The notes under the pieces were generated by a model, which was not told where the DNA came from, did not search any database, and was given only the letters and a program-made list of their open reading frames with translations. The translations under genes were made by a program, and so were the position numbers. A stretch of DNA of 38,411 nucleotides, taken from contig CAKUGU010000023.1 of NCBI GenBank assembly GCA_934654815.1, forward strand, positions 1 through 38,411, read 5' to 3'. Of the stretch, positions 13,133 through 38,411 are shown one piece after another (within the stretch, counting starts at the first letter, position 1; each line of letters starts with the position of its first letter). Source of the stretch: an uncultured Ellagibacter sp. Its GTDB lineage: Bacteria > Actinomycetota > Coriobacteriia > Coriobacteriales > Eggerthellaceae.

Positions 13133-15994
13133 TCAGTCGATCGTGATGCGATCAACCTCCACGGCGGCAAGCGCCTCCCGGCACAGGTCGCACCCGAGGC
13201 CCGCCTCGTGCCCTGCTCGGTTGAGGGTTACGATGCCGCGCTCGGCGGTGTAGGGAGGCTCGGTGACGTCGACGTCGAAGTAGCGCGAGGTCGAACCGAT
13301 GTCGCCCGGCATCACCACCTGGGGCAGCGCGCCGAACGCAGCATGCATCCGCTTCGAGATGCCCGTGTCGTACATGCCGCCCATCCACACCTCGCGGTTA
13401 CGACGGCGCGCCTCGCAGATGAAGCGCAGCGCAGGCTCGACGCCCCCGAACTTCGCCACCTTCACGGCGAAGCATCGCAGCTCAGGATGCGAAAGCGCCT
13501 CGTAGGCCTCGCGCGCGTTCACGAACGATTCGTCGAGGCACACGGGCGTGGCGATCGAGCGCTGCAGGTTCGCGAGGCGCGCGAACGGGTGCTGGCGGCC
13601 CTGCGCTCCGTGCAGCACGCGAAGGGGCTCCTCGATCCACGCGATGCGGAGCGCGTCGTATGCGCGAAGCTCTTCCAAGTCGCGGTCGGTGAAGCTCTGG
13701 TTCGCATCGAGCGTTACGATGAGCTGGGGAAACGTCTGGCGAACAGCTCGCACGGCGGCGAAGCTCCCCGGCGCGACCTTCAGCTTCACCCGTCGGTAGC
13801 CCGCCTCCACGCACTCTGCGACGGCGGCGACCGTGTCGTCGGGACTTCCCATACCCACCACGGCACCTGCGGCGACGGCCGTTTGCGCCGCGCCGCCCTC
13901 GCGACCGCCGGATGTGCCCGCCGCTCGCGGGAAGCGGTACGCGACCGCCCCGCCGCGTGCCTTCTCGATCGCGTCGTATTCTTCGGCGAGCAGGCGCCAC
14001 AGCGGCTTGCCCGTCGCCTTCCCGTAAAGGTCCCACATCGCCGGCTCGATCGCCCCGCACGCAAGCGGGTAGCGGTCGAGCCCGGGGATGGCACCGAGCG
14101 ATTCGCTCACCTCGCGCGGGTGCAGGAAAACCTGCGAGAGGATTTTCGGCGCGACGACCTCCCGCATGATCTCGAGATCCTGCTCGATCGTTTCGGGAAG
14201 GTACCAGTCGGTCGAGAACGCCACGCATTCGCCGAGACCGACGCGCCCTCGGCCATCGACGACCTCGACGATGACCGATTCGCGGCTATCGAGCGTCGCC
14301 TTCGCCGTGACGAACGGCTTCTTGAAGGGGATGCGCACCCGATGAAGAATGACTTTCACGATTTCGAGGCGCTCGTCGTAGGCAAGCTCGATCGAGGCGC
14401 GGTCGAGCTTGCCGATGCCCTTGCGGGGCAGCTCGTCGACCGCGAAGATCCGTTTCGGTTGGTAGATCTTCGAGAGGCTCCCCGAAAGCTGGTCGGACAC
14501 GGAACGGGCGAAGGCGTGATTGCCGGGCTGCGACGGGCTCGGCGGCGCCTGGCGGTGCGCGGGCGCTTTCCCCGGCCCGAGGTTCCTGCCGAAATGCGCA
14601 CCGCGGACCGGGCGCTCGAACGGGGAGGCCGCGCCATCGATCGGCTTCGGCGCCGCCTTCCCACGCTCGACGAACGCGACCGGGCGACGGCCCCACGCGG
14701 GATCAGGCGCACCGAACACATGCGCGTCGGCGACGCCGGGGACGCGCAGGAGCTTCTCGACGATTTCGGCGGGGTAGACGTTTTCCCCGCCGGACACGAA
14801 CATGTCCGAGGTCCGCTCCTTCACGTAGATCTTGCCACCCGCAAGCGCCGCGGTATCGCCCGTGAGGAAGAACCCATCGACGGTGAAGGCGGCCCGCGCG
14901 TTCAAGTAATTCGAAAACACGCCGGGGCCCTGCACGGCCAACCGCCCGTACCCCGATGGGTCGGCATCGACGATGCGCGCATGATAGCCGGGCAATAGCG
15001 ACAGGCCGCCGTCGAACGCGCCGTCTATCAGGGTGTTCGCAATCTGGCTGCACGTTTCCGTCATACCGTAGCTTGCGTAGACGCGCCCGCCGACGCGATA
15101 TGCCCGTTCCACCGTGCTCGCATTGAGCGCCGCCCCGCCGAGCAATATGCACCGATAATGGGACAGAAGCGACCCGTCGGAATCGACGGCGAGCATATCC
15201 TGAAGCATCTTGTCGACGACCGAGACGTGAGTCGCGCCGACGAGCGCGGCATCAGCGAGAACGCGCGCCGCATCGAAATGCGCGTAGAGGCGAAACGGCG
15301 TCTGGTTGGCGACGCTACGCGCGACGACCTCGAACCCGCCGATGTGGTACAGCGGCAAGACGGCCTGCCACATGCCGCTCCCACGCACGGAAAGCGACCC
15401 GTTCGACGCGGCGGCGGCAGCCATGAGCTTGCGCCAGGTAAGGGGGACCGCCTTGGGCTTGCCCGTGGTGCCGGACGTGAACATGATAAGCGCGCGGGCC
15501 TCGTCGTCGAACAGATGCGCTTCGTGCTCGGCGAAATGCGTCGCCTCGTCTTCGGCGTCTTGCTTCGCCCCCATGATCGGACGATGCCCCCGCGGCTGGG
15601 CGCCCTCACCCGACAAGGCGGCGACGGCGTGCGAGACGAGCGCGCGGGCACGGGCTTCGTCGATGCGGCAGGTTACGCGAAGCCCCTGCGCCTCGAGATC
15701 GAACACGCGCGAGAGCTTCTCCGACGCGGTGAGACGGTTGTTGAGAGCCACGAGCGTGAACCCGCCGTACCCGGCAGCCAGAACGAGCAGCACGAATTCG
15801 GGACAGTTCGGCAAATCGACCGACACGCAGTCGCCCCGATGCACGCCTTTGCCGCGCAACCGGCGCGCGATCTGAGCCGCAAGAAGCCGCGTTCTCCGAT
15901 AGGTGAACAGGTGCTCGGTCCCGTCGTTTTCGATGAACGCGAAGAAAGCCCCGTTGGGGTTTGCCTTTGCTGTGCTTTCAAAAGCGCTGATCAT
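13133..15994 (-). CDS. menE-menC: Fused o-succinylbenzoyl-CoA synthetase / o-succinylbenzoate synthase (MenE-MenC)
   Basis: One uninterrupted frame of 953 residues holds two menaquinone enzymes. Residues 1-545 are MenE, an acyl-adenylate-forming ligase activating o-succinylbenzoate with ATP and CoA. It has the P-loop MFTSGTTGKPKA, YGMTETC, the FLTGDTA motif, ERTSDMFVSGGENVYP and the catalytic lysine in GKLDR. Residues from about 546 are MenC, an enolase-superfamily dehydratase making o-succinylbenzoate. It has K-L-K, LDANQ, IEEP, LDES and KVAKFGG, so the base lysines and metal ligands are all present. An unusual low-complexity insert of about 50 residues (445-498, Pro/Gly/Arg-rich) interrupts the small MenE C-terminal domain. 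The ATG at 15994 matches the expected MenE N-terminus but has a poor ribosome site; the frame runs open upstream across menB. A GTG at 14359 could restart MenC alone, but no stop separates the two enzymes. Confidence 0.9.
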   Translation of the reverse strand: MISAFESTAKANPNGAFFAFIENDGTEHLFTYRRTRLLAAQIARRLRGKGVHRGDCVSVDLPNCPEFVLLVLAAGYGGFTLVALNNRLTASEKLSRVFDLEAQGLRVTCRIDEARARALVSHAVAALSGEGAQPRGHRPIMGAKQDAEDEATHFAEHEAHLFDDEARALIMFTSGTTGKPKAVPLTWRKLMAAAAASNGSLSVRGSGMWQAVLPLYHIGGFEVVARSVANQTPFRLYAHFDAARVLADAALVGATHVSVVDKMLQDMLAVDSDGSLLSHYRCILLGGAALNASTVERAYRVGGRVYASYGMTETCSQIANTLIDGAFDGGLSLLPGYHARIVDADPSGYGRLAVQGPGVFSNYLNARAAFTVDGFFLTGDTAALAGGKIYVKERTSDMFVSGGENVYPAEIVEKLLRVPGVADAHVFGAPDPAWGRRPVAFVERGKAAPKPIDGAASPFERPVRGAHFGRNLGPGKAPAHRQAPPSPSQPGNHAFARSVSDQLSGSLSKIYQPKRIFAVDELPRKGIGKLDRASIELAYDERLEIVKVILHRVRIPFKKPFVTAKATLDSRESVIVEVVDGRGRVGLGECVAFSTDWYLPETIEQDLEIMREVVAPKILSQVFLHPREVSESLGAIPGLDRYPLACGAIEPAMWDLYGKATGKPLWRLLAEEYDAIEKARGGAVAYRFPRAAGTSGGREGGAAQTAVAAGAVVGMGSPDDTVAAVAECVEAGYRRVKLKVAPGSFAAVRAVRQTFPQLIVTLDANQSFTDRDLEELRAYDALRIAWIEEPLRVLHGAQGRQHPFARLANLQRSIATPVCLDESFVNAREAYEALSHPELRCFAVKVAKFGGVEPALRFICEARRRNREVWMGGMYDTGISKRMHAAFGALPQVVMPGDIGSTSRYFDVDVTEPPYTAERGIVTLNRAGHEAGLGCDLCREALAAVEVDRITID

Positions 15995-16077
15995 CAGGTG
16001 AAACGCTCGCCGTTCTCTTCGGAAATGCCGTGGTGCGGGAAAAGCCGGCCCGCTCTCACCGAGCCGGCGACGCGCCC

Positions 16078-16917
16078 TTAGGGGAACTTCGAATACTGGG
16101 TGAAGTCGGGGGCGCGCTTTTCCTTGAACGCGTCGCGGCCTTCCTTCGCCTCGTCGGTGGTGTAGTACAGAAGCGTGGCGTCGCCGGCGAGCTGCTGGAT
16201 GCCCGCAAGCCCGTCGGTCGCGGCGTTGAAACTCGCCTTCATGAAGCGCAGCGCCGTCGGCGAGAACTGCAGCATCTCGCGCGCCCATGACACGCATTCC
16301 GCTTCGAGGTCGTCGAAGGGGACGACCTTGTTCACGAGCCCCATCTCGAGCGCCTCGACAGCCGTGTACTGGCGGCAGAGGTACCAGATCTCGCGAGCCT
16401 TCTTCTGCCCCACGACGTTCGCGAGGTAGCCCGCGCCGTATCCCGCGTCGAAGCTGCCCACCTTGGGGCCGGTCTGGCCGAACTTGGCGGTTTCGGCCGC
16501 GATGGAAAGGTCGCACAGAAGGTGCAGCACGTGTCCACCGCCGATGGCGTAGCCGTTCACCATGGCGATGACGGGCTTGGGGACCACGCGGATGAGACGC
16601 TGCAAATCGAGCACGTTCAGGCGGGGGATGCTATCCTCGCCGACGTAGCCGCCGTTGCCGCGGATCTTCTGATCGCCGCCCGAGCAGAACGCCTCGTCCT
16701 CGTGGCGTCCATGGTGGTTGGCGCCCGTGAGAATGATGACGCCGATCGACGCATCGTCGCGCGCGACCGTGAACGCATCGTACATCTCGTTCACGGTAAG
16801 CGGGGTGAACGCGTTGCGCCGTTCGGGGCGGTTGATGGTGATCTTCGCGATACCGTCGGTGGTTTCATAGATGATCTCGCGATATTGCTTCGCAACATGC
16901 CATTCGATGTCGCTCAT
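16078..16917 (-). CDS. menB: 1,4-dihydroxy-2-naphthoyl-CoA synthase (MenB)
   Basis: This 279-residue crotonase-fold enzyme closes the second ring of the naphthoquinone, turning o-succinylbenzoyl-CoA into DHNA-CoA in the cytosol. The oxyanion-hole regions appear as FCSGGDQ and [11 protein letters not shown]. The diagnostic active-site segment reads [14 protein letters not shown]. The Gly in QTGP, where the mycobacterial type has Asp, puts it in the bicarbonate-dependent type I group like the E. coli enzyme. The C-terminal [13 protein letters not shown] is also typical. AAAGGAC lies just before the ATG. It is followed after 83 bases by menE-menC and preceded by menH on the same strand. Confidence 0.97.
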
Positions 16918-28379: not shown

Positions 28380-29698
28380 TGCCTCGTCAGAAAGCACAGC
28401 AGGAATACTCACGCCCCGAGCGCGGGCGGGCCCGCTCAACGCGCGGCCGCGTGCGCTCGTCGGCGACGTTCGGAAGCCGCACCGACGTCGGGTGCGTGCG
28501 CGACCACAACGAGGACAGCCTCGTCGTCGCGCCGCCGCTGTTCGTCGTGGCCGACGGCATGGGCGGCCACGCCGCGGGCGAGGTCGCATCCGAAATCGCC
28601 GTGCGCGTTCTCTCCGACCGCGCACCCGAGCACCCCGACTCCGAAGCGCTCGGACGCGCCGTGCAGGCCGCCAACCACGCCATCCTGAAGGCCGCCCACG
28701 AAGGCCGCGGCCGCGAGGGCATGGGGACCACGTGCACCGCCGCCATGCTCGAGGGGGAGAGGCTCATCATCGCCCAGGTCGGCGACTCGCGCGCCTACCT
28801 TCTCCATCGGGGGCACTTGCAGCAGCTAACCCGCGACCACAGCCTCGTGGCCGACTTGGTCGAGGCGGGGCAGATCACCGCCGAGGAGGCACGCGTCCAC
28901 CCGCAGCGCTCGGTCATCACGCGCGCGCTCGGAAGCGACCCGCGCACCGTGGCCGACCTGTACGAGATCAACGTCGAAGCGGGCGACCGCTTGCTCTTAT
29001 GCTCCGACGGGCTTTCGGGCATGGTCCTCGACGCCGACATCGAGGCGACGCTCAATCGCATCCGCGACCCGCAGCGCTGCGCGTCGCAGCTGGTCAACGA
29101 GGCGATCGCCGCGGGCGGCCACGACAACGTCACCGTCATCGTGGCAGACGTGGCGGGCTACGCCGAGAAGCACCGCAAGAAGATCGCCCGCAAGACGAAG
29201 GTGACCATCGCACTCGTCCTCGTCCTTCTGGCGGCCATCATCGCAGGGGCCGCCTACGGGCTCAACTACTGGGTGTCCACCGCAGCGTTCCTGGGCGTGA
29301 ACGACAACAAGGTCGCCATCTACCGCGGCGTGCCGGGAGACCTCTTCGGCATCTCGTTCTCGACGCTCGAGGAGACGACCGACATCGACGTCGACGACCT
29401 GCAGCCGGGGCTTGCCAACCGCCTGCGCGACGGGCAAATCACCGCCGACAACCTCGACGCGGCGAAATCGCTCGTCGCCGAATACGAGCAGGAGGTTTCC
29501 GCCAAGAAGGCCGCCGAGGACCAGAAGGCCGAGGCTGCCAAGGAAAAGCAGGAAGAGAAGGCCGCGCAGGACTCCACATCCGCCTCGGGCTCATCGAAGA
29601 GCGGCAGCGCCTCTGCGTCCGCCACCGGCAACGAGTCGTCTTCAAGCTCGGCATCGAGCCAGAAGTCCGTGAAGACCTCGGGCGGTGACGCCGAATGA
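28379..29698 (+). CDS. pstP: PP2C-type Ser/Thr phosphatase with membrane anchor
   Basis: This 439-residue protein carries a PP2C domain (about 25-260) that would dephosphorylate the PASTA kinase and its targets. The metal-binding and core motifs are RDHNEDS, VADGMGGHAAGE, GTTCTAAM, VGDSRAYLL, LCSDGLSGMV and GGHDNVTVI. A single membrane helix follows (about 274-296), then an extracellular segment of about 140 residues. That segment has a Lys/Glu/Ala coiled-coil stretch and a Ser-rich tail. The start overlaps the fhaB stop, and the stop overlaps the next start as ATGA, so the operon is translationally coupled. Domain order matches actinobacterial PstP. Confidence 0.94.
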   Translation: MPRQKAQQEYSRPERGRARSTRGRVRSSATFGSRTDVGCVRDHNEDSLVVAPPLFVVADGMGGHAAGEVASEIAVRVLSDRAPEHPDSEALGRAVQAANHAILKAAHEGRGREGMGTTCTAAMLEGERLIIAQVGDSRAYLLHRGHLQQLTRDHSLVADLVEAGQITAEEARVHPQRSVITRALGSDPRTVADLYEINVEAGDRLLLCSDGLSGMVLDADIEATLNRIRDPQRCASQLVNEAIAAGGHDNVTVIVADVAGYAEKHRKKIARKTKVTIALVLVLLAAIIAGAAYGLNYWVSTAAFLGVNDNKVAIYRGVPGDLFGISFSTLEETTDIDVDDLQPGLANRLRDGQITADNLDAAKSLVAEYEQEVSAKKAAEDQKAEAAKEKQEEKAAQDSTSASGSSKSGSASASATGNESSSSSASSQKSVKTSGGDAE

Positions 29699-32490
29699 CG
29701 AGGCGCAACATCGAGCTTACGCTTCTCTGCATCGCGGCCCCGCTCGTCATCCTCATGTTCGCGATGCTCGCCGTGAACGAGGGCCAGGCGCTCGATCTGC
29801 AGACACTCGGCGTGCCGCTCGGGCTGTTCGCGGCGTTCATCATCTCGCACATCGCCACGCGCAAGCTCGCCCCCGAGGCTGATCCCGCCATCCTTCCCAT
29901 CGGGTTCGCCCTGTCGGGCATCGGCATCGCGTTCATCACGCGCATCGCCCCGTTCTCCGACAGCCCCAACATGGCGATCAACCAAGTGGCGTGGCTGTTC
30001 GTCGGCGTCGTGCTCATGATCTTGGTCATGGCGTTCCTGAAGAACCCCGACAGGCTCGCCAACTACAAGTACACCCTCGCCATCGTCGGCGTCATCCTAC
30101 TCCTCTCCCCGATGATCCCGGGACTCGGCCAGGAAATCTACGGCAGCCGCATCTGGCTGCATATCGGCGGGTTCTCCTTCCAGCCGGGCGAGTTGGCGAA
30201 GATCATCATCGTGTTGTTCCTCGCCGGCTACCTCGCGCAGAACCGCGAGATGCTCTCGGTGTTCACCTGGCGCGTCGGCCCGTTCAACCTGCCCGACATC
30301 CGCACGCTCATCCCCCTTCTGGTCATGTGGGGCATGGCCATGCTCATCGTCGTGTTCGAGAAGGACCTCGGCAGCGCGCTCGTGTTCTTCCTCGTGTTCC
30401 TGGCCATGCTCTACGTCGCGACGGGCAAGAAGTTCTACCTGGTCGCGGGCCTGCTCCTCGTCGCCGTCGGCGGCGTGGGGGCGTATTTCGCCTTCGACCA
30501 CGTGCAGACGCGCGTCACCACCTGGCTCGACCCGTTCGCCGACGCCCAGAACACCGGCTATCAGCTGGTGCAGACGCTCTATTCGCTCGCCGACGGCGAC
30601 CTGTTCGGCACGGGCATCGGGCGCGGCATGGCCGGCGGCGGCAACGGCATCACCCGCATCCCCGTCGTGGAAAGCGACTTCATCTTCGCCGCGATCGGCG
30701 AGGAGACGGGGCTTTTGGGCGCGGCCGGCCTCTTGCTTTTGTACCTGTGCTTCGCCATCCGCGGCTTCGTCACGGCGGCCCGCGCGAAATCCGACGTGAG
30801 CTCGCTCATCGCGGCCGGCCTGACCTCGATCATCGTGCTCCAGGCGTTCATCATCGTCGGCGGCGTCACGCGCCTCATCCCGCTGACGGGCATCACGCTG
30901 CCCTTCGTGAGTCAGGGCGGCTCGTCGCTTCTGGCCGCGTTCATCATCATGGGCTTCCTTCTGCGCTGCGGCGACGAGGGGACGGGAACCGACACCGCGG
31001 TCGCAAGCGCCACCACGGCCATCAACGCGAACAGCGTGCTCGGGCGCGTGTCGCTCGGCAAGCGCCTCACCCATACCATGATCGTGTTCTCGCTCATGTT
31101 CGCAGCGCTCGTGGCGAACCTCACGCTCATCATGGTCGTGCAGGCAAGCGACTACCAGAACATGCCCGCGAACAACCACACCTTGGCGCGCGAGGCGAAG
31201 ACCGAGCGCGGCACCATCTCGACCATCGACGGCACCGTGCTCGCCCAGAGCGTGAGAAACGACGACGGCACCTACTCGCGCGTGTACCCGGCAGGCGACT
31301 TGGCCAGCCATGTCGTCGGCTACACCTCCTCGAAGTACGGCACGAGCGGCATCGAGGCGAGCTACAACGACACGCTCAAGGGCGAGAAGAACTTCGCCTC
31401 GGTAAGCGACGTCGTGAACTCGCTCGCGGGCGTGAACACGCCGGGCAACGACGTCACGCTCACCCTGAACTCGACGATCCAGCAAGCCGCGCAAGACGCG
31501 CTCGAAGGTCAGACGGGCGCCTGCGTCGTCATGGACCCGAAGACGGGCGCCGTGCTCGCGATGGCGAGCTCGCCCACCTACGACGCGTCCGACGTCGACG
31601 ACGTCATCGCCGACTCGTCGAGCTCGAGCGAGCTGTACAACCGCGCGACCCAGGCGCTCTACGCCCCGGGCTCCACGTTCAAGATCATCTCGCTCGCGGC
31701 ATCGCTCCAGGAAGGCGTCGCCACGGAGGCGAGCATGTACCAGTCACCCGCGACCATGGACATCGGCAACGCGGCGGTCACGAACTTCGAGCACCACAAC
31801 TACGGCACCATCTCGCTCGCCCGCGCGACCGAGCTTTCTTCCAACGTCGTGTTCGGCCAGCTCGGCGTGCAGTTGGGAGCCGAGAACCTCGTGAACTACT
31901 CGAAGCTGTTCGGGTTCAACATGGACATCGACTTCGACTTGCCGCTCGCCACCTCCGTCATGCCCGACGCGAAGGACATGACCACGTGGGAAACCGCATG
32001 GGCGGCGGCGGGCGAGCCCGTCGGCGAGGGCAAGACGAGCGCGCACCCCAGCCCGGCAGGCCCCCAGGCGACCGTGCTCGAGATGGCGCTCGCCGGATGC
32101 GGCATCGCCAACGACGGCACGATCATGCAGCCCTACCTGGTCGACGGCATCTACAACGCAGACGGCCAGCGCAGCTACACCGCGAACCCGACGAAGCTTT
32201 CCCAGGCGATAAGCGCCGACGTGGCCAAGCGCGAGCGTACCGTGCTCGAAGGCGTCGTGAAGAACGGCACCGGCACCGCCGCCGCGATCGACGGCACCAC
32301 GGTCGCCGGCAAGACGGGCACCGCCGAGCACAACGGCTACAACGACGTGTGGTTCGTCGGCATGGCGCCGTCGGATAGCTGCGATGTCGTCGTCGCGCTC
32401 GTGATCGAGAAGGGCGAGTCGAGCGAATACGCCGCGGGGCTCGCGCAAAATGTGATTAAAACCGCACTGGAAGTGCAAGGAGATTTATAA
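29695..32490 (+). CDS. SEDS glycosyltransferase-class B PBP fusion (FtsW/RodA + PbpA)
   Basis: One 931-residue frame joins a SEDS peptidoglycan polymerase and its cognate transpeptidase. Residues 1-440 are a polytopic FtsW/RodA-family domain. It has the conserved NTGYQLVQTLYSLADGDLFG region, then TRIPVVESDFIF with the catalytic-loop Asp328, and LPFVSQGGSS. A further helix (about 457-485) precedes an extracellular penicillin-binding domain. The active-site motifs are S660-T-F-K (SxxK), S715-S-N (SxN) and K873-T-G. The PBP half is PbpA-like. RodA or FtsW and a class B PBP normally act as a two-protein complex; here stoichiometry is fixed at 1:1. It lies between the phosphatase and the kinase, as rodA and pbpA do in other actinobacteria. 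Confidence 0.95.
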   Translation: MTRRNIELTLLCIAAPLVILMFAMLAVNEGQALDLQTLGVPLGLFAAFIISHIATRKLAPEADPAILPIGFALSGIGIAFITRIAPFSDSPNMAINQVAWLFVGVVLMILVMAFLKNPDRLANYKYTLAIVGVILLLSPMIPGLGQEIYGSRIWLHIGGFSFQPGELAKIIIVLFLAGYLAQNREMLSVFTWRVGPFNLPDIRTLIPLLVMWGMAMLIVVFEKDLGSALVFFLVFLAMLYVATGKKFYLVAGLLLVAVGGVGAYFAFDHVQTRVTTWLDPFADAQNTGYQLVQTLYSLADGDLFGTGIGRGMAGGGNGITRIPVVESDFIFAAIGEETGLLGAAGLLLLYLCFAIRGFVTAARAKSDVSSLIAAGLTSIIVLQAFIIVGGVTRLIPLTGITLPFVSQGGSSLLAAFIIMGFLLRCGDEGTGTDTAVASATTAINANSVLGRVSLGKRLTHTMIVFSLMFAALVANLTLIMVVQASDYQNMPANNHTLAREAKTERGTISTIDGTVLAQSVRNDDGTYSRVYPAGDLASHVVGYTSSKYGTSGIEASYNDTLKGEKNFASVSDVVNSLAGVNTPGNDVTLTLNSTIQQAAQDALEGQTGACVVMDPKTGAVLAMASSPTYDASDVDDVIADSSSSSELYNRATQALYAPGSTFKIISLAASLQEGVATEASMYQSPATMDIGNAAVTNFEHHNYGTISLARATELSSNVVFGQLGVQLGAENLVNYSKLFGFNMDIDFDLPLATSVMPDAKDMTTWETAWAAAGEPVGEGKTSAHPSPAGPQATVLEMALAGCGIANDGTIMQPYLVDGIYNADGQRSYTANPTKLSQAISADVAKRERTVLEGVVKNGTGTAAAIDGTTVAGKTGTAEHNGYNDVWFVGMAPSDSCDVVVALVIEKGESSEYAAGLAQNVIKTALEVQGDL

Positions 32491-32569: not shown

Positions 32570-34615
32570 GTGTCTAGCGCAGCGATGATAGGCAGAGTCT
32601 TCAACAACCGATACCAGATCACCGAACGCATCGGCATCGGCGGCATGGCCGAGGTGTACCAAGCGCAGGACAATGTGCTCGGTCGCCGCGTCGCCGTGAA
32701 GGTGATGCTGCCCCAGTACGCGGCCGATCCCGCGTTCGCACAGCGCTTCCGCCAGGAAGCCGCCTCCGCCGCGAACCTGCAGAGTCCCTACATCGTGAAC
32801 GTCTACGACTGGGGCCAGGACGACGGCACCTACTACATCGTCATGGAGTTCATCCGCGGCACCGATCTTAAAACCGGCATCGTACAGCGCGGCGCACTCA
32901 ACCAGCGCAAGGTCGCCGAAATCGGCTCGCAGGTGTGCCAGGCGCTTTCGGTCGCGCACAACCAGGACATCATCCACCGCGACATCAAGCCGCAGAACAT
33001 CATGGTCCAACCCGACGGCAACGTGAAGGTGATGGACTTCGGCATCGCGCGCGCCAAGAACTCGGTCAATTCCAAAACCTCCACCGTGCTCGGAACGGCC
33101 CACTACATCTCGCCCGAGCAGGCGCAGGGCAAAGAGCTTACCGCCGCGAGCGACATCTACTCGCTCGGCGTCGTGCTGTTCGAAGCCGCAACGGGCAAGC
33201 TTCCCTTCGATGGCCCCGACGCGATCAGCGTCGCGATGAAGCAGGTGAACGAGGAGGCTCCCCTGCCGAGCGACTTCAAGCCCGACATCGACCCGGGCCT
33301 TGAGAGCATCATCGTGAAGGCCATGCAGAAGAACCCCGCCGAGCGATTCGCCACGGCGAACGACATGCGCCTCGCGCTGAACGACTTCCTCGCGGGCCGT
33401 CCCGTCAACGTGGGCCCCGCCGCCATGGCCGGCGGCTTCACGAGCGAGCAGACGCGCGTCATGGGGCCCGTCGACGGCCGCGTCGCTTCTGCCGACAGCA
33501 CCATGGTCATGCCGCAGGGCGCCGTGAAGCCGGTTTCCCATTCCGGGCAAACCGCCTACCGCGCCACCGATACCATGCCCGAGGAAAAGGGCGGCAAGAA
33601 GAAGGTCGGCCTCATCGTGGGGCTCATCGCGGCCATCGCCGTCATCGCCATCGCCGCGCTCGCGTTCTCGGGAGCCTTCGCATCAGGCGACCCCGTGCCC
33701 GACGTGAAGGGCAAGACGCTCGAAGAGGCGACGAGCATCATCGAGAAGGCGGGCTTCACCGTCGGCACCACGAACTCGGTGCACGACGACAGCGTCGCCG
33801 CCGGCAGCGTCGTGAGCCAAGACCCCACCGCGGGTACGAAGAAACCCGCAGGCACGAAGATCAACCTGAACATCTCCCAGGGCACCGAGCAGGTCACCGT
33901 TCCCGACATCACGGGCAAAACGCCTGATGAGGCGCAACAGCTTGCCGACAAGGCCGGGCTTACGCTCAAAGCCGGCACGCCCGTGTACGACGACAAGGTC
34001 GAGAAGGGCAAGATCTCGACGCAGGATCTGAAGGCGGGCGACAAGGCAGCCAAGGGCTCCGTCATCACCTACGCGCTCTCCCTCGGCAGCGAGAAGGTCG
34101 CCGTGCCCGACGTCACCGGCAAGTCCGAAAGCGATGCGCGCGCCGCGCTCAAGAACGCCGGCTTCGAGGTCTCGGTTTCCCAGGAATCGAGCTCGAAGGT
34201 GGAAAAGGGCTACGTCATCCGACAGTCCCCGAGCAGCAGCGAGAGCGCCGACAAGGGCGCGACCGTCTCCATCACGGTGAGCAGCGGCTCGAAGACGACC
34301 TCGGTGCCCAACGTCGTCGGCAAATCCGAAGGCTCCGCGCAGACCACGCTGAGCAACGCCGGGTTCAACGTCTCGACCGAATACACGTCGAGCTCGAGCG
34401 TGAGCAAGGGCAACGTGATCAGCCAAACGCCCGAATCGGGCACGTCGCTCGAGCCGGGCAAGACGGTGCATCTCGTCATCTCCACCGGTTCGTCGAGCAG
34501 CAATTCCGGGTCGGGCAATGGGAACAATAGCGGCTCGAACAGCGGCAACGGAAGCAATGGCGGGAACTCCAATTCTGGCAACTCGTCTTCGGGCTCGTCG
34601 TCGGGTAATAACTAG
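32570..34615 (+). CDS. pknB: PASTA-domain Ser/Thr protein kinase (PknB/PrkC type)
   Basis: This 681-residue receptor kinase senses peptidoglycan fragments or lipid II outside and phosphorylates wall and division proteins inside. The kinase domain (10-275) has the glycine loop IGIGGMAEVY, Lys44, H136-R-D138-I-K-P-Q-N and D156-F-G. An activation loop rich in Ser/Thr (SKTSTVLGT) is followed by SPEQ. A juxtamembrane linker leads to one helix (about 345-370). Four extracellular PASTA repeats begin near residues 374, 442, 510 and 577, each opening with a VPD/VPN-x-x-GK motif. The last 35 residues are Ser/Gly/Asn-rich. The start is a GTG at 32570 with GAAGGAG upstream; an ATG five codons later is possible. 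A strong terminator follows. Confidence 0.96.
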   Translation: MSSAAMIGRVFNNRYQITERIGIGGMAEVYQAQDNVLGRRVAVKVMLPQYAADPAFAQRFRQEAASAANLQSPYIVNVYDWGQDDGTYYIVMEFIRGTDLKTGIVQRGALNQRKVAEIGSQVCQALSVAHNQDIIHRDIKPQNIMVQPDGNVKVMDFGIARAKNSVNSKTSTVLGTAHYISPEQAQGKELTAASDIYSLGVVLFEAATGKLPFDGPDAISVAMKQVNEEAPLPSDFKPDIDPGLESIIVKAMQKNPAERFATANDMRLALNDFLAGRPVNVGPAAMAGGFTSEQTRVMGPVDGRVASADSTMVMPQGAVKPVSHSGQTAYRATDTMPEEKGGKKKVGLIVGLIAAIAVIAIAALAFSGAFASGDPVPDVKGKTLEEATSIIEKAGFTVGTTNSVHDDSVAAGSVVSQDPTAGTKKPAGTKINLNISQGTEQVTVPDITGKTPDEAQQLADKAGLTLKAGTPVYDDKVEKGKISTQDLKAGDKAAKGSVITYALSLGSEKVAVPDVTGKSESDARAALKNAGFEVSVSQESSSKVEKGYVIRQSPSSSESADKGATVSITVSSGSKTTSVPNVVGKSEGSAQTTLSNAGFNVSTEYTSSSSVSKGNVISQTPESGTSLEPGKTVHLVISTGSSSSNSGSGNGNNSGSNSGNGSNGGNSNSGNSSSGSSSGNN

Positions 34616-35066: not shown

Positions 35067-36506
35067 CTACGCGCTCGGGATCCTCAGCACGAACGTCGTG
35101 CCTTCCCTTTCTTCCCCATCGATGGCGATCGACCCGCGGTGATAGAGCACCGCATGTTTCACGATGGCAAGACCGAGGCCCGTGCCGCCCGTTTCCTTCG
35201 AGCGGCTCTTGTCGAGCCGGTAGAACCGTTCGAACACCTTTTCCCGCTTGTCCTCAGGAATTCCCGGACCCGTATCGCTCACGCGCACGACGGCGCGCAT
35301 GCGCCCGCGTTCGGCCGGCGGGAGCGAGCGCGCGTCCTTCTCGAGTTCCACCGCAGTGGGAAGCTCGAGTCTCACGGACACAGTGACCCGCCCGCCCTCG
35401 TGGTTGTAGCGGATGCCGTTCTCGACGAGGTTGTACAGCATCTCCTCGATGAGCGTCTCCGCGCCCATGATGCAGGCGTCCTCGCCCTCGACGCTCACGT
35501 TCACCTTGCGGTCGGACGCGAAGCGATCGAGCCGCGCAGCCACGCGCTTCGACACCTTCAACAGATCGATCCTCGCCGCGGCGTCGAGGGAAAGCGACGT
35601 CTCGTCGAGCCGCGACAGCGTGAGCACGTCGTCGATGAGCGCACGCATCGACTGCGCCTCGTCATAGATAAGGCCGGCGAACTTCTGGCGATCGGACGCG
35701 TCGACCATGTCGTTCTTCATGAGCTCGGCATAACCGGAAATCACCTGCAGAGGTGTTTTCATCTCATGGCTCACGTTGCTCGAGAAGTCCCGGCGCATCG
35801 ATTCGGCGCGCGCGAGCTCCTCGTTTTGCCCTTTGAGCAGGCGTTGCTGCTCGTCGATGCGCTCGAGCAGCGGGTCCATCTCCTCGTAGATCTCGTTTTC
35901 GAGCGGATCGGAGAAGTCGAGCGCGTCGATCGGCTGCATGATGCGCGAGGTGAGCTTCTGCGAAAGCAGGAACACGAGCAGAATGGCCACAAGAAGCGTG
36001 AGCGCGATCGGGGCCATCATGCCGCTGAAGAACGCGAGCAGCGAATCGCGCGTTTCCGAGAGCCGAACGACGCTGCCGTTATCGAGCTTCACGGCCGAGT
36101 ACAGCGTGTCGGTTCCCGCAGTGTCCGAATAACGGGACACTTCGCCCTCGCCGCGAGCGTCGGCCTCGAGCACTTCGGGGCGATTCGCGTGGTTTTCCAT
36201 CGTCGAGGCGTCGGCAACGCTGTCGTAGAGCACCGTACCGTCGGCGCCGATAAGCGTGTAGCGGAATTGGTCGGAAAGCTGCCGCTCGAGAATGGCGCGG
36301 TCGGTGTCGCTCGTCTGCCCGTTGAGCGTTTCCGCGACGTTGCGCGTCGCCTGCGACAACGTCGACTCGGCATCGCGCTCGTAGCCAAGGTAGAAGATCG
36401 CGCTCATCGCCGCGCCGAAGAGGAACAGCATGACAAGGGTGAACGCGAGAACGCTTCTGAAAATGCGCCCCGACAGGCTTTTCACAGAATGATGGGTGGG
36501 GCTCAT
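35067..36506 (-). CDS. PhoR-like sensor histidine kinase
   Basis: This 479-residue membrane kinase has a first helix (about 17-41), an extracellular domain of about 120 residues, and a second helix (about 160-183). A linker and a HisKA domain follow, with the phosphorylated His247 in NVSHEMKTPLQVI. The ATPase domain shows NLVENGIRYNHEGG (N box), DTGPGIPEDKR (G1), FERFYRLDKSRS (F box) and GGTGLGLAIVK (G2). The start at 36506 overlaps the regulator stop as ATGA. The context, behind a PhoB-like regulator and a PstB-like protein, suggests phosphate or envelope stress sensing. The ligand is unknown. Confidence 0.92.
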   Translation of the reverse strand: MSPTHHSVKSLSGRIFRSVLAFTLVMLFLFGAAMSAIFYLGYERDAESTLSQATRNVAETLNGQTSDTDRAILERQLSDQFRYTLIGADGTVLYDSVADASTMENHANRPEVLEADARGEGEVSRYSDTAGTDTLYSAVKLDNGSVVRLSETRDSLLAFFSGMMAPIALTLLVAILLVFLLSQKLTSRIMQPIDALDFSDPLENEIYEEMDPLLERIDEQQRLLKGQNEELARAESMRRDFSSNVSHEMKTPLQVISGYAELMKNDMVDASDRQKFAGLIYDEAQSMRALIDDVLTLSRLDETSLSLDAAARIDLLKVSKRVAARLDRFASDRKVNVSVEGEDACIMGAETLIEEMLYNLVENGIRYNHEGGRVTVSVRLELPTAVELEKDARSLPPAERGRMRAVVRVSDTGPGIPEDKREKVFERFYRLDKSRSKETGGTGLGLAIVKHAVLYHRGSIAIDGEEREGTTFVLRIPSA

Positions 36507-37195
36507 GAGGCGCTCCTTAAGGTATAGCCGACGCCGCGGACGGTGCAGATACACCCGTCGGCGCCGGACGACGCGGCGGCGAGCTTCTGGCGCAGCGTCT
36601 GGATATGCACGTCGACCGTGCGCGTCTCGCCGACGTAGCTCACGTCCCACACGTCCTCGAGCAGCTGCCGGCGAGAAAGCACCTTGCCCTCGTTTTTCAT
36701 CAGCGCATGCAGCAAATCGAATTCCTTCAACGTAAGCGAAACCGGCTTGCCACCGGCTTTGACCGTATGGGCGGACGACACGAGCTCGATCGGACCGCAC
36801 ACCAGGGTGTCGGAGCTGTTGACGGCCGGAGCCTGCGCCCGGCGCAGCAGCGCGTTCACGCGCGACACCAGCTCCATCATACCGAAAGGCTTCGCCAAAT
36901 AATCGTCGGCGCCCGCATCGAGCCCGCAAACCTTGTCGAATTCGGTGCCCTTCGCCGTGAGCATCATGGTCGGGATGTTCTTCGTCGCCGGACGGCTACG
37001 AAGTGCACGCAAAACCTCAAGGCCGTCCACCTCCGGCAGCATGATGTCGAGAAGAACCAGGTCGGGAAGCGTTTTCTCACATGCTTCGAAGAACTCGCGA
37101 GCGCAGGGGAAGCCTTCGGCCTCGAACCCCGCCTGCTTGAGCGCGTAGACGGTGAGGTCGCGTATGTTGGTGTCGTCTTCTACGTAGTAGATCAT
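36503..37195 (-). CDS. PhoB/OmpR-family response regulator
   Basis: This 230-residue regulator has a receiver domain with the acidic pair in YYVEDD and the phosphoacceptor Asp50 in LVLLDIMLP. The Thr-Ala in MLTAKG and the Lys-Pro in YLAKPF complete the receiver. A winged-helix DNA-binding domain follows, with LTLKEFDLLHALMKNEGKVLSR, TRTVDVHIQTLRQKL and a terminal VRGVGY. It is the middle gene of a three-gene minus-strand operon: PstB-like protein, 115-base gap, regulator, kinase. The N-terminus (MIYYVEDD) lacks the usual few extra residues but is complete. Confidence 0.94.
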   Translation of the reverse strand: MIYYVEDDTNIRDLTVYALKQAGFEAEGFPCAREFFEACEKTLPDLVLLDIMLPEVDGLEVLRALRSRPATKNIPTMMLTAKGTEFDKVCGLDAGADDYLAKPFGMMELVSRVNALLRRAQAPAVNSSDTLVCGPIELVSSAHTVKAGGKPVSLTLKEFDLLHALMKNEGKVLSRRQLLEDVWDVSYVGETRTVDVHIQTLRQKLAAASSGADGCICTVRGVGYTLRSAS

Positions 37196-37310
37196 GATGG
37201 TCGCAATCCAATCGAGCCCGGCTTTCAGGATGTGCAGCCATCATCGCGCGAGGCGGTCAAGAAGCAATCGGACTTGCGTCAAGAGAAGGTAAAGAAACAG
37301 CCACGGCGCT

Positions 37311-38195
37311 TTAGCGCATGCGCCCCTCGAAGAACGACCGCGCACGATAATCGGCGCTCGGGGAAGTGAGTTCGCTAGGCGTTCCCGTTTCGACGAGCCG
37401 GCCTTCGAGGAAAAACGCCGCCCGATCCGCGAGGCTTTCGACCTCGCACGCGTCACACGATTCAATGACAACGGCGATTCGCCGCTCCTTCGCGATGCGG
37501 CGTAGCGCGTCTTGCACGACGTGTGCATCGTCGCGGGAAAGCCCGCGCGTCGGCTCTTCGACGAGAAGCGCTTCGGGGCTGCGAAGAAGCGCCTGAGCAA
37601 GGCGGACAAGCCGCTGCTCGAGCGGCGAGCAGGAACTGACGCGCGCCCTCATATGCGGCGCAAGGCGTTTCTTCACGCCCATGGCATCGAGCGCGGCATC
37701 GATCGCCTCGCAAAGGGCGGCCTCTGCATGAACGCCACGCAGGCGCAAGGGGCGCGCGAGCGCGTTGTAGACGCTCTGCTCCTCGGAAAGGCCCGCCGCG
37801 AACGCCGTCGCCGCAAGGTTTCGCGCTCGGTCAGGGGAAACGTCGTGAAGAACGCTCATGCCCGCAACGAGGATGTCTCCCTCGCTTTCCCATTCGCCCG
37901 CCCCGGGAAGCGTTTGCCCGACCGCACAGAGCATCGTCTGCGCGCCGCACCCGCGCGGGCCGCAAAGCGCAAGGACTTCCCCGGAGTAGGCTTCGAAGGA
38001 AACGCCTTCGAGGGCGCGAAACGTCCCATACGAGAAGCCGAAATCGTGCACTTCGATAACCGTCTTAGCGGCAGGGGCCGTCTTCGCCTCGTGCGCTGCG
38101 GCGCCGGCCAAAACCTGCTCGGCAGCGCGCACCACGTCCGCCGCCTCGCCATTTGCCCTCGAACGAGAAATCGGACAATCCAGTAAACCACGCAT
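37311..38195 (-). CDS. Degenerate PstB-like ABC pseudo-ATPase
   Basis: This 294-residue protein matches PstB, the phosphate importer ATPase, from residue 45 on. It has YGTFRALEGVSFEAYSGEVLAL, then a spacer with SVYNALARPLRLRG at the place of the PstB SIYDNVAYGPR segment. The C-terminus DRAAFFLEGRLVETGTPSEL follows the PstB pattern. However, every nucleotide motif is altered. Walker A is GPRGCGAQT (Ala85 for Lys). The Q-loop Gln is Ala133. LSGGQ reads SCSPL (188-192). The Walker B Asp is Glu213 (Glu214 kept), and the H-loop His is Ser246. The frame is intact, so this is not a decayed gene by frameshift. A 44-residue N-terminal extension is added. The ATG at 38195 is chosen because AAGGAG precedes it. 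It heads the operon with the regulator and kinase. I infer a non-hydrolysing signalling role; a weak ATPase cannot be excluded. Confidence 0.85.
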   Translation of the reverse strand: MRGLLDCPISRSRANGEAADVVRAAEQVLAGAAAHEAKTAPAAKTVIEVHDFGFSYGTFRALEGVSFEAYSGEVLALCGPRGCGAQTMLCAVGQTLPGAGEWESEGDILVAGMSVLHDVSPDRARNLAATAFAAGLSEEQSVYNALARPLRLRGVHAEAALCEAIDAALDAMGVKKRLAPHMRARVSSCSPLEQRLVRLAQALLRSPEALLVEEPTRGLSRDDAHVVQDALRRIAKERRIAVVIESCDACEVESLADRAAFFLEGRLVETGTPSELTSPSADYRARSFFEGRMR

Positions 38196-38301
38196 CGCAT
38201 TCTCCTTTGCTTCTGTCCCTATCATCGGGGCGAAGCATCAGATGCATGTTGAAGGGAGGTCATTCTTTCGTAAATACGGAAGCGCGACGCGGTAAGAAAG
38301 A

Positions 38302-38325
38302 TAAAAGCCGGTCAACCGACCGGCT
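38302..38325 (-). terminator. Rho-independent terminator of the tRNA-Leu
   Basis: On the minus strand, AGCCGGTC, a GGTT loop and GACCGGCT form an eight-base-pair stem followed by TTTAT. It lies about 13 bases past the tRNA CCA. Confidence 0.8.
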
Positions 38326-38337
38326 CATGCTTCGAAA

Positions 38338-38411
38338 TGGTGCGGGCGAAAGGACTTGAACCTTCATGGGGTTGCCCCCATACGGACCTGAACCGTACGC
38401 GTCTGCCAATT
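38338..38411 (-). tRNA. tRNA-Leu (CAG anticodon), 5' end cut by the window edge
   Basis: The minus strand holds the last 74 bases of a class II tRNA. It has an anticodon stem ACGG/CCGT with loop containing CAG, a long variable arm TGGGG..CCCCA typical of leucine tRNA, a T arm with GGTTCAAGTCC, an acceptor 3' strand GCCCGC, discriminator A and an encoded CCA. The acceptor 5' strand and part of the D arm lie beyond the window. Confidence 0.9.

Follow-up and report, generated by a model that had tools for sequence, protein, structure and literature searches.

The window, as we call the whole stretch of 38,411 nucleotides that was analysed, carries near its right-hand end a minus-strand gene of 294 codons with zero internal stops. 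It is followed on the same strand by genes for a PhoB-like response regulator and a PhoR-like histidine kinase and then, on the opposite strand, by pknB and a gene for an FtsW-PBP fusion. The features of the locus are as follows.

29695..32490, plus strand: FtsW-PBP fusion, a syntenic marker
32570..34615, plus strand: pknB-type PASTA kinase, a syntenic marker adjoining phoR
35067..36506, minus strand: phoR/pnpS-like histidine kinase, 479 aa, with sCache-like, HisKA and HATPase_c domains
36503..37195, minus strand: phoB-like response regulator, 230 aa, with Response_reg and Trans_reg_C domains
37196..37310, minus strand: gap of 115 nt between the pseudo-ATPase gene and phoB
37311..38195, minus strand: PstB-derived pseudo-ATPase gene, 294 aa (span includes the stop codon)
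38202..38207, minus strand: Shine-Dalgarno-like AAGGAG, ~6 nt ahead of the ATG at 38195
38305..38326, minus strand: terminator-like hairpin 3' of the tRNA, from a hairpin scan
38340..38411, minus strand: tRNA-Leu gene, truncated by the window end, assigned by likeness to the tRNA-Leu(CAG) of genome G445

No PAS domain was matched by Pfam in the window kinase, and the hairpin scan of the window revealed no terminator-like site in the 115-nt gap. Because a tRNA-Leu gene and a terminator-like hairpin lie upstream, the pseudo-ATPase gene may start its own transcript, a suggestion to be read with the fact that the two overlapping hairpin sites in the window do not exceed the 2.1 expected by chance. 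Since the window extends just 216 nt upstream of the gene and stops within the tRNA-Leu, the upstream lack of transporter genes is better judged in G445, where the place of tRNA-Leu(CAG) matches the tRNA-Leu segment of the window at 98.75% identity across 80 nt. In G445 the same tRNA, and then an unrelated gene, lies upstream of the pseudo gene, and pstS, pstC, pstA and phoU gave no match beside it. An earlier note, made from the window alone, had claimed a dead PstB copy adjoining phoBR with no transporter genes next to it; the adjacency recurs in G445, so that linkage has been read in two places, and the claim about transporter genes holds for G445 and for the 216 nt that the window shows. 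Between the window and G445, protein identity is 88% for FtsW-PBP, 84% for PhoB, 76% for PhoR and 41% for the pseudo-ATPase. Those homologues of the kinase that bear names come from Gordonibacter, Enteroscipio, Eggerthella and Raoultibacter, all of which we take to be Eggerthellaceae.

Two fused genes were also observed in the window. The FtsW/RodA domain and the penicillin-binding transpeptidase form one 931-aa ORF (29695-32490); in a sample of 396 genomes from the phylum, at least 15 gave near-full-length matches in a single open frame. At 13133-16516, a 1127-aa ORF joins an AMP-binding enzyme to an enolase-type domain; adjoined by genes for an enoyl-CoA hydratase, a hydrolase, a TPP enzyme and a chorismate-binding protein, it looks like part of a menaquinone cluster with a MenE-MenC fusion, if these tentatively assigned names are right.

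The protein has lost the ATPase motifs of PstB

We compared the window protein with 28 intact PstBs, of which 26 belong to the same family and 2 to the class. In this alignment, Walker A carries K85A and S86Q, the Q-loop Q133A, the signature LSGGQ (189-193) reads CSPLE, Walker B carries D213E with the catalytic Glu214 retained, and the H-loop carries H247C; the C-terminal GR is retained, in the form DYRARSFFEGRMR. Consequently, all four motifs by which a PstB would be recognised (Walker A GxxGxGK[ST], LSGGQ, Walker B DE and the H-loop His) are altered, and, to judge from these residues, ATP hydrolysis is very unlikely. The alignment agrees with the earlier note that the Walker A Lys, Q-loop Gln, LSGGQ, Walker B Asp and H-loop His are lost in an intact frame; its calls of K85A, Q133A and D213E stand, and two others need correction, the H-loop residue being Cys247 and not Ser246 and the signature CSPLE and not SCSPL.

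The change extends well beyond these motifs. The intact PstBs have a mean mutual identity of 67%, compared with ∼24% between them and the window protein. Among 96 columns conserved to at least 95% in the intact PstBs, 44 are replaced in ten of ten pseudo proteins, 31 of them variably and 13 always by a single residue. In total, the ten proteins share 27 retained columns and 27 that are derived and invariant, the latter including Cys78, Arg81, Gly93, Thr95, Gly135, Glu138, Asn144, Ala145, Gly218, Asp223 and Asp248.

The pseudo-ATPase most probably descends from the pstB of a pst-phoBR operon

The best NCBIfam match of the window protein was PstB (TIGR00972) at 92.2 bits, 251 bits short of the cut-off of 343.2; the G445 pseudo protein scored 93.2 bits and was likewise under it. 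The ABC ATPase domain PF00005 matched at 43.3 bits, above its gathering cut-off of 25. A first AlphaFold run on a 10-row alignment modelled the N-terminal half poorly (pLDDT 65.7). The model compared by Foldseek (pLDDT 88.8) points to an ABC fold: among 1,794 matches, E. coli PstB structures 9k3s and 9k3x ranked first and second (TMq 0.73 and 0.76), with the qualification that intact PstBs were mixed into the model's alignment, so that the predicted fold may lean towards PstB. In a tree of 62 proteins, the ten pseudo proteins were monophyletic (100/100) on a stem of 1.9 changes per site and formed one clade with all PstBs (96/96). The PstBs formed a branch excluding the pseudo group (99/94), an arrangement that long branches could have caused; constraining the pseudo group with the syntenic PstBs cost 18.6 lnL units and was not rejected (p-AU 0.093). 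The profile, fold and tree results thus support the PstB origin proposed earlier, and by the same three an ABC family other than PstB was rejected, the tree giving no other.

The gene neighbourhoods are consistent with this origin. In G437, the syntenic place holds pstS-pstC-pstA-pstB-phoB-phoR, adjoining pknB and ftsW-pbp as in the window, and its PstB is intact (412.6 bits). A PhoR match at E ≤ 1e-90 was found in 89 of 138 family genomes, and the phoBR regions of 44 of those 89 Eggerthellaceae genomes were read. phoB preceded phoR in all 44 loci, and in 29 a Walker-A-bearing PstB lay upstream on the same strand within 4 kb; upstream in the remaining loci were the pseudo form in one (G445), a pstB fragment in one (G261) and nothing PstB-like in 13, of which one (L105) runs off its contig. 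When the PstBs of these loci were checked for motifs, those of L087, L090 and L091 missed the strict signature pattern, that of L113 the C-terminal pattern and the fragment in L119 three patterns. Because a pstB gene stands upstream of phoBR in 29 of 44 loci and G437 shows the whole operon in synteny, we read the pseudo gene as the pstB that remained after the loss of pstS, pstC and pstA. Its origin from the pstB of a pstSCAB-phoB-phoR operon common in Eggerthellaceae is strongly supported.

Remnants of pst genes were also seen elsewhere near phoBR. In G261 (L119, 4963-5750), there is a pstB with a large internal gap together with a piece of PstA, and in G175 (L120, 11007-11108) a piece of PstS; these are independent erosions of the pst operon. 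As judged by eye from translations, the gene before phoB at places where pst is absent resembled a Na/phosphate cotransporter in L107, L109 and L116 and an MscS-type channel in L097, L100 and L108.

The dead form is conserved within a small clade

Searches for relatives found at least eight close homologues (P0002-P0009; 62–93% identical, 293–311 aa) and, with a profile, at least 35 more distant ones (P0242-P0276), these counts being lower bounds because each protein search scored only ∼8,000 candidates. We call the distant group, and with it G445, Ellagibacter-type because P0263, labelled uncultured Ellagibacter sp. by its source, has the motifs of the G445 clade. Its members P0242-P0270 (n = 29) are 246–323 aa long, and P0271-P0276 (n = 6) 181–215 aa. 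None of the 43 family proteins that span Walker A has Lys at position 85 (44 were tabulated, window protein included, and P0273 alone does not cover the motif); in P0009 a Lys sits one position later. The expectation that the motif loss would be conserved across relatives is therefore borne out. P0009, 62% identical to the window pseudo-ATPase, and kinase P0123, 89% identical to the window kinase, probably lie on one contig, the longest contig of both having 71,542 bases. In P0270 (315 aa), the N-terminal part is pseudo-PstB and the C-terminal part resembles an intact ABC ATPase of another kind, so that it looks like a recombination product or an assembly chimera. Chance or a sequencing error in one genome was rejected as an explanation of the window gene because at least 37 relatives of 246–323 aa, one of them chimeric, exist besides the window protein.

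The form is lineage-specific, being restricted to a small clade of gut bacteria related to Ellagibacter. With a profile built without the G445 protein, only G445 among 138 family genomes scored far above the rest (2.1e-66; next 2.9e-32). When that protein was included, 201 of 396 class genomes matched at E ≤ 1e-30, and again only G445 stood out (2.3e-125; next 6.3e-39). Few candidates were scored per genome (17 in the 138-genome search and 6 in the 396-genome search), so weak relatives may be missed. In 28 of the 29 other loci of the 138-genome search (L013-L041), all five checked PstB features were present, the exception (L033) lacking only the C-terminal pattern; of nine other loci from the class search, eight had all five and L124 had no usable ORF. 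A single-protein scan of genome contigs returned distant ABC ATPases only, and a first phylum search returned none in 396 genomes; both results fit a rare clade. An origin in viruses was rejected, 0 of 42 pattern matches in one viral-contig scan encoding a relative.

Selection still acts after the loss of the motifs

In the dN/dS comparison that the earlier note had proposed, codon maximum likelihood between the window and G445 genes rejected omega = 1 (LR 69.5); because dS is saturated (estimate 20.9), only this rejection is of use and the omega value itself (0.03) is not usable. Differences at codon positions 1, 2 and 3 were 0.46, 0.39 and 0.65. Both results may partly reflect the period before the death of the ATPase. 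We therefore rely on a comparison of per-site variability between the nine proteins of the close clade and 28 of the Ellagibacter-type clade (P0242-P0269, with the chimera P0270 and the six short proteins excluded), which is free of the time before ATPase death because both clades lack the motifs. Variability in the two dead clades correlated over 284 columns (rho 0.32, p 3e-8; Fisher odds 2.7, p 5e-5), and 0 of 2,000 permutations within residue class gave a value as high. The correlation was also found at 174 core sites that have one consensus residue in the Ellagibacter-type clade and another in PstB (rho 0.26, p 6e-4). Against the intact PstBs, variability correlated for the close clade (rho 0.30) and hardly for the Ellagibacter-type clade (rho 0.11, p 0.07); rows within a clade are related, so all these p-values are a guide only. 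Overall, selection still acts on the pseudo gene after the loss of its motifs.

Fifty-four columns are invariant and identical in both dead clades, most densely in the former P-loop (76-84), at 93-98, in the stretch after the Q-loop (129-144), in the C-terminal helix (281-292) and in an N-terminal helix (V21-L29). Of 11 listed positions from the catalytic and signature residues, 9 have a different consensus in the two clades. The window gene shows neither the broken frame nor the absence of purifying selection by which a pseudogene would be recognised: its frame is intact, omega = 1 is rejected and its constraint is shared.

Some strains lack the gene or carry broken copies

The sole other genome examined in the genus of G445, G446, is collinear with G445 except for 1,032 bp spanning the entire pseudo gene, and identity is 97% across the 911 nt of the phoB region next to them. 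Because the window and G445 share the gene, G446 would have lost it rather than never having had it, although its absence there may be an assembly error. Among the short proteins, P0271 and P0274 pass into one shifted frame of the gene at their ends, and P0272 into the other shifted frame. In P0275 and P0276 the likeness to the family stops at the Q-loop and an unrelated tail follows, and the start of P0273 is different. These breaks may reflect read errors in metagenomes. The earlier note had named three findings that would speak against its proposal, of which a retained Walker A Lys and placement in another ABC family did not appear and frameshifted orthologues (P0271, P0272 and P0274) did. 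The gene is dispensable in some strains.

These observations fit a slowly dying relic, the functionless last gene of an eroded pst operon, caught at stages of loss that vary by strain. Absence from G446, the six frameshifted or otherwise broken homologues, the similar erosion near phoBR in G261 and G175 and the fast change of the protein (41% identity against 76% for PhoR, which also counts against a needed role) would all follow from it. Yet 36 of the 43 listed family homologues (8 close and 35 distant) have 246–323 aa and reach the family's own C-terminus, a count biased by the preference of protein databases for intact ORFs. Further, a functionless gene does not readily account for site-specific constraint common to two dead clades, nor for the third-position excess with omega = 1 rejected. 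In a simulation of random mutation without indels (300 runs), the frame stayed stop-free in 48% of runs at 0.05 substitutions per site; this share fell to 4% at 0.2 and to zero at 0.85. Weighing both sides, we consider a relic doubtful.

A second Pst system offers another possible partner

On another contig of G445 (L044, 5550-11708) lies pstS-pstC-pstA-pstB-pstB-phoU-phoB, with both PstBs above the TIGR00972 cut-off (345.3 and 369.7 bits), and G446 has a gene set like it. In the genus search (E ≤ 1e-20), the matches in G445 were the pseudo gene and one PstB on the contig of this second operon. The pseudo-ATPase might act on an ABC transporter such as this second Pst, either as a non-hydrolysing partner or as an inhibitor, docking on the permease groove or pairing with an intact PstB and throttling transport with PhoR untouched. 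In ABC importers, the stretch after the Q-loop faces the permease. In the pseudo proteins it is among the best conserved parts, with G135, E138, Q140, V142 and N144 showing no variation in either clade and four of the five departing from intact PstBs; two intact PstBs and permeases are at hand elsewhere in G445. However, two motifs of the dimer interface, the signature and the H-loop, have been lost, and the second Pst system persists in G446, where the pseudo gene is absent. We regard this putative role as improbable.

A new ligand, in which the ALCGPRGCG loop (Cys78 gained, Cys83 kept) would sense a nucleotide, a metal or the redox state independently of phosphate transport, is suggested by the invariance of C78, R81 and C83 in both clades where the 28 intact PstBs have invariant Ile78 and Ser81, but this proposal leaves the position beside phoBR unexplained and is very improbable.

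Discussion

Most plausibly, the pseudo-ATPase has a non-catalytic role in Pho signalling. We propose that pstS, pstC and pstA would have been lost from this place in the common ancestor of the window and Ellagibacter-type lineages, of which at least G445 carries a second pst-phoU operon, different in type, at another place. The pstB gene would have stayed beside phoB, lost the residues for ATP binding and hydrolysis and acquired a short helix at the N-terminus together with other residues that became fixed, and its product would have persisted as a non-catalytic ABC-fold protein, most likely acting by binding. By mimicking one state of PstB, it may engage PhoU, PhoR or the second Pst transporter and so bias phosphate signalling, and it would be dispensable in some strains. 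In this broad form, as a functional non-catalytic protein in phosphate signalling or transport control, it is the reading that we tentatively favour.

In its narrower form, the protein would be, as proposed earlier, a dedicated signalling adaptor of PhoB/PhoR; it would work independently of ATP and set PhoR output after loss of the pump, perhaps by imitating one frozen state of the pump that is gone or by connecting PhoR with the second Pst system. In E. coli, PstB and PhoR are both bound by PhoU (PMC4423584, as far as the available part of that report describes). In addition, the accessible part of PMC5775613 describes an E. coli PstB variant, Q160K, that does not transport and yet signals phosphate sufficiency. 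Together, these results make a PstB of fixed state that holds PhoU or PhoR possible in principle. The window kinase without a Pfam PAS match and the lack of a phoU match beside the gene in G445 count against such holding, and we consider the dedicated adaptor unlikely.

The mechanism of phosphate signalling from Pst to PhoR is unsettled; one proposal holds that the conformation of the transporter is what PhoR and PhoU read (PMC5775613). A PstB that is expected not to hydrolyse ATP and is kept beside phoBR without its pump offers a natural test of signalling by shape only. The protein is also a clear case of an ABC motor protein outliving the loss of its catalytic residues, and within one bacterial family an intact operon, a dead copy, broken copies and outright absence can all be seen.

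Comparison with known systems

Among the titles and abstracts listed in searches of the open-access literature, none described a PstB-derived pseudo-ATPase with PhoR. The closest known protein is PstB of the PstSCAB importer (TIGR00972; 9k3s/9k3x), which the pseudo protein resembles in best HMM and fold match, C-terminal GR and slot before phoB-phoR, and from which it differs in its ∼24% identity, lost ATPase motifs, score 251 bits under the cut-off and lack of pstS, pstC or pstA beside it. Heterodimeric ABC transporters such as TAP and CFTR have degenerate nucleotide-binding sites that are still in use and are similar in that ABC ATPase sites without catalytic residues serve a purpose; these sites belong to a working transporter that retains one good site, whereas the pseudo-ATPase consists of one soluble-type domain and has no permease gene as a neighbour.

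Adjacent pstB genes have been described for Enterococcus faecalis (PMC12096839). According to the available part of that report, tandem pstB1/pstB2 are alike in providing a second PstB-type protein with a role unlike that of the main ATPase, but they keep the four ATPase motifs and lie in a pst-phoU locus, neither of which applies to the pseudo gene. The nearest parallel in signalling is offered by E. coli PstB Q160K and E179Q which, in the part of PMC5775613 available, are non-transporting forms under which a defined signal to PhoR/PhoU persists; these are laboratory mutants in a complete PstSCAB-PhoU system, whereas the pseudo gene stands with no pstSCA or phoU beside it.
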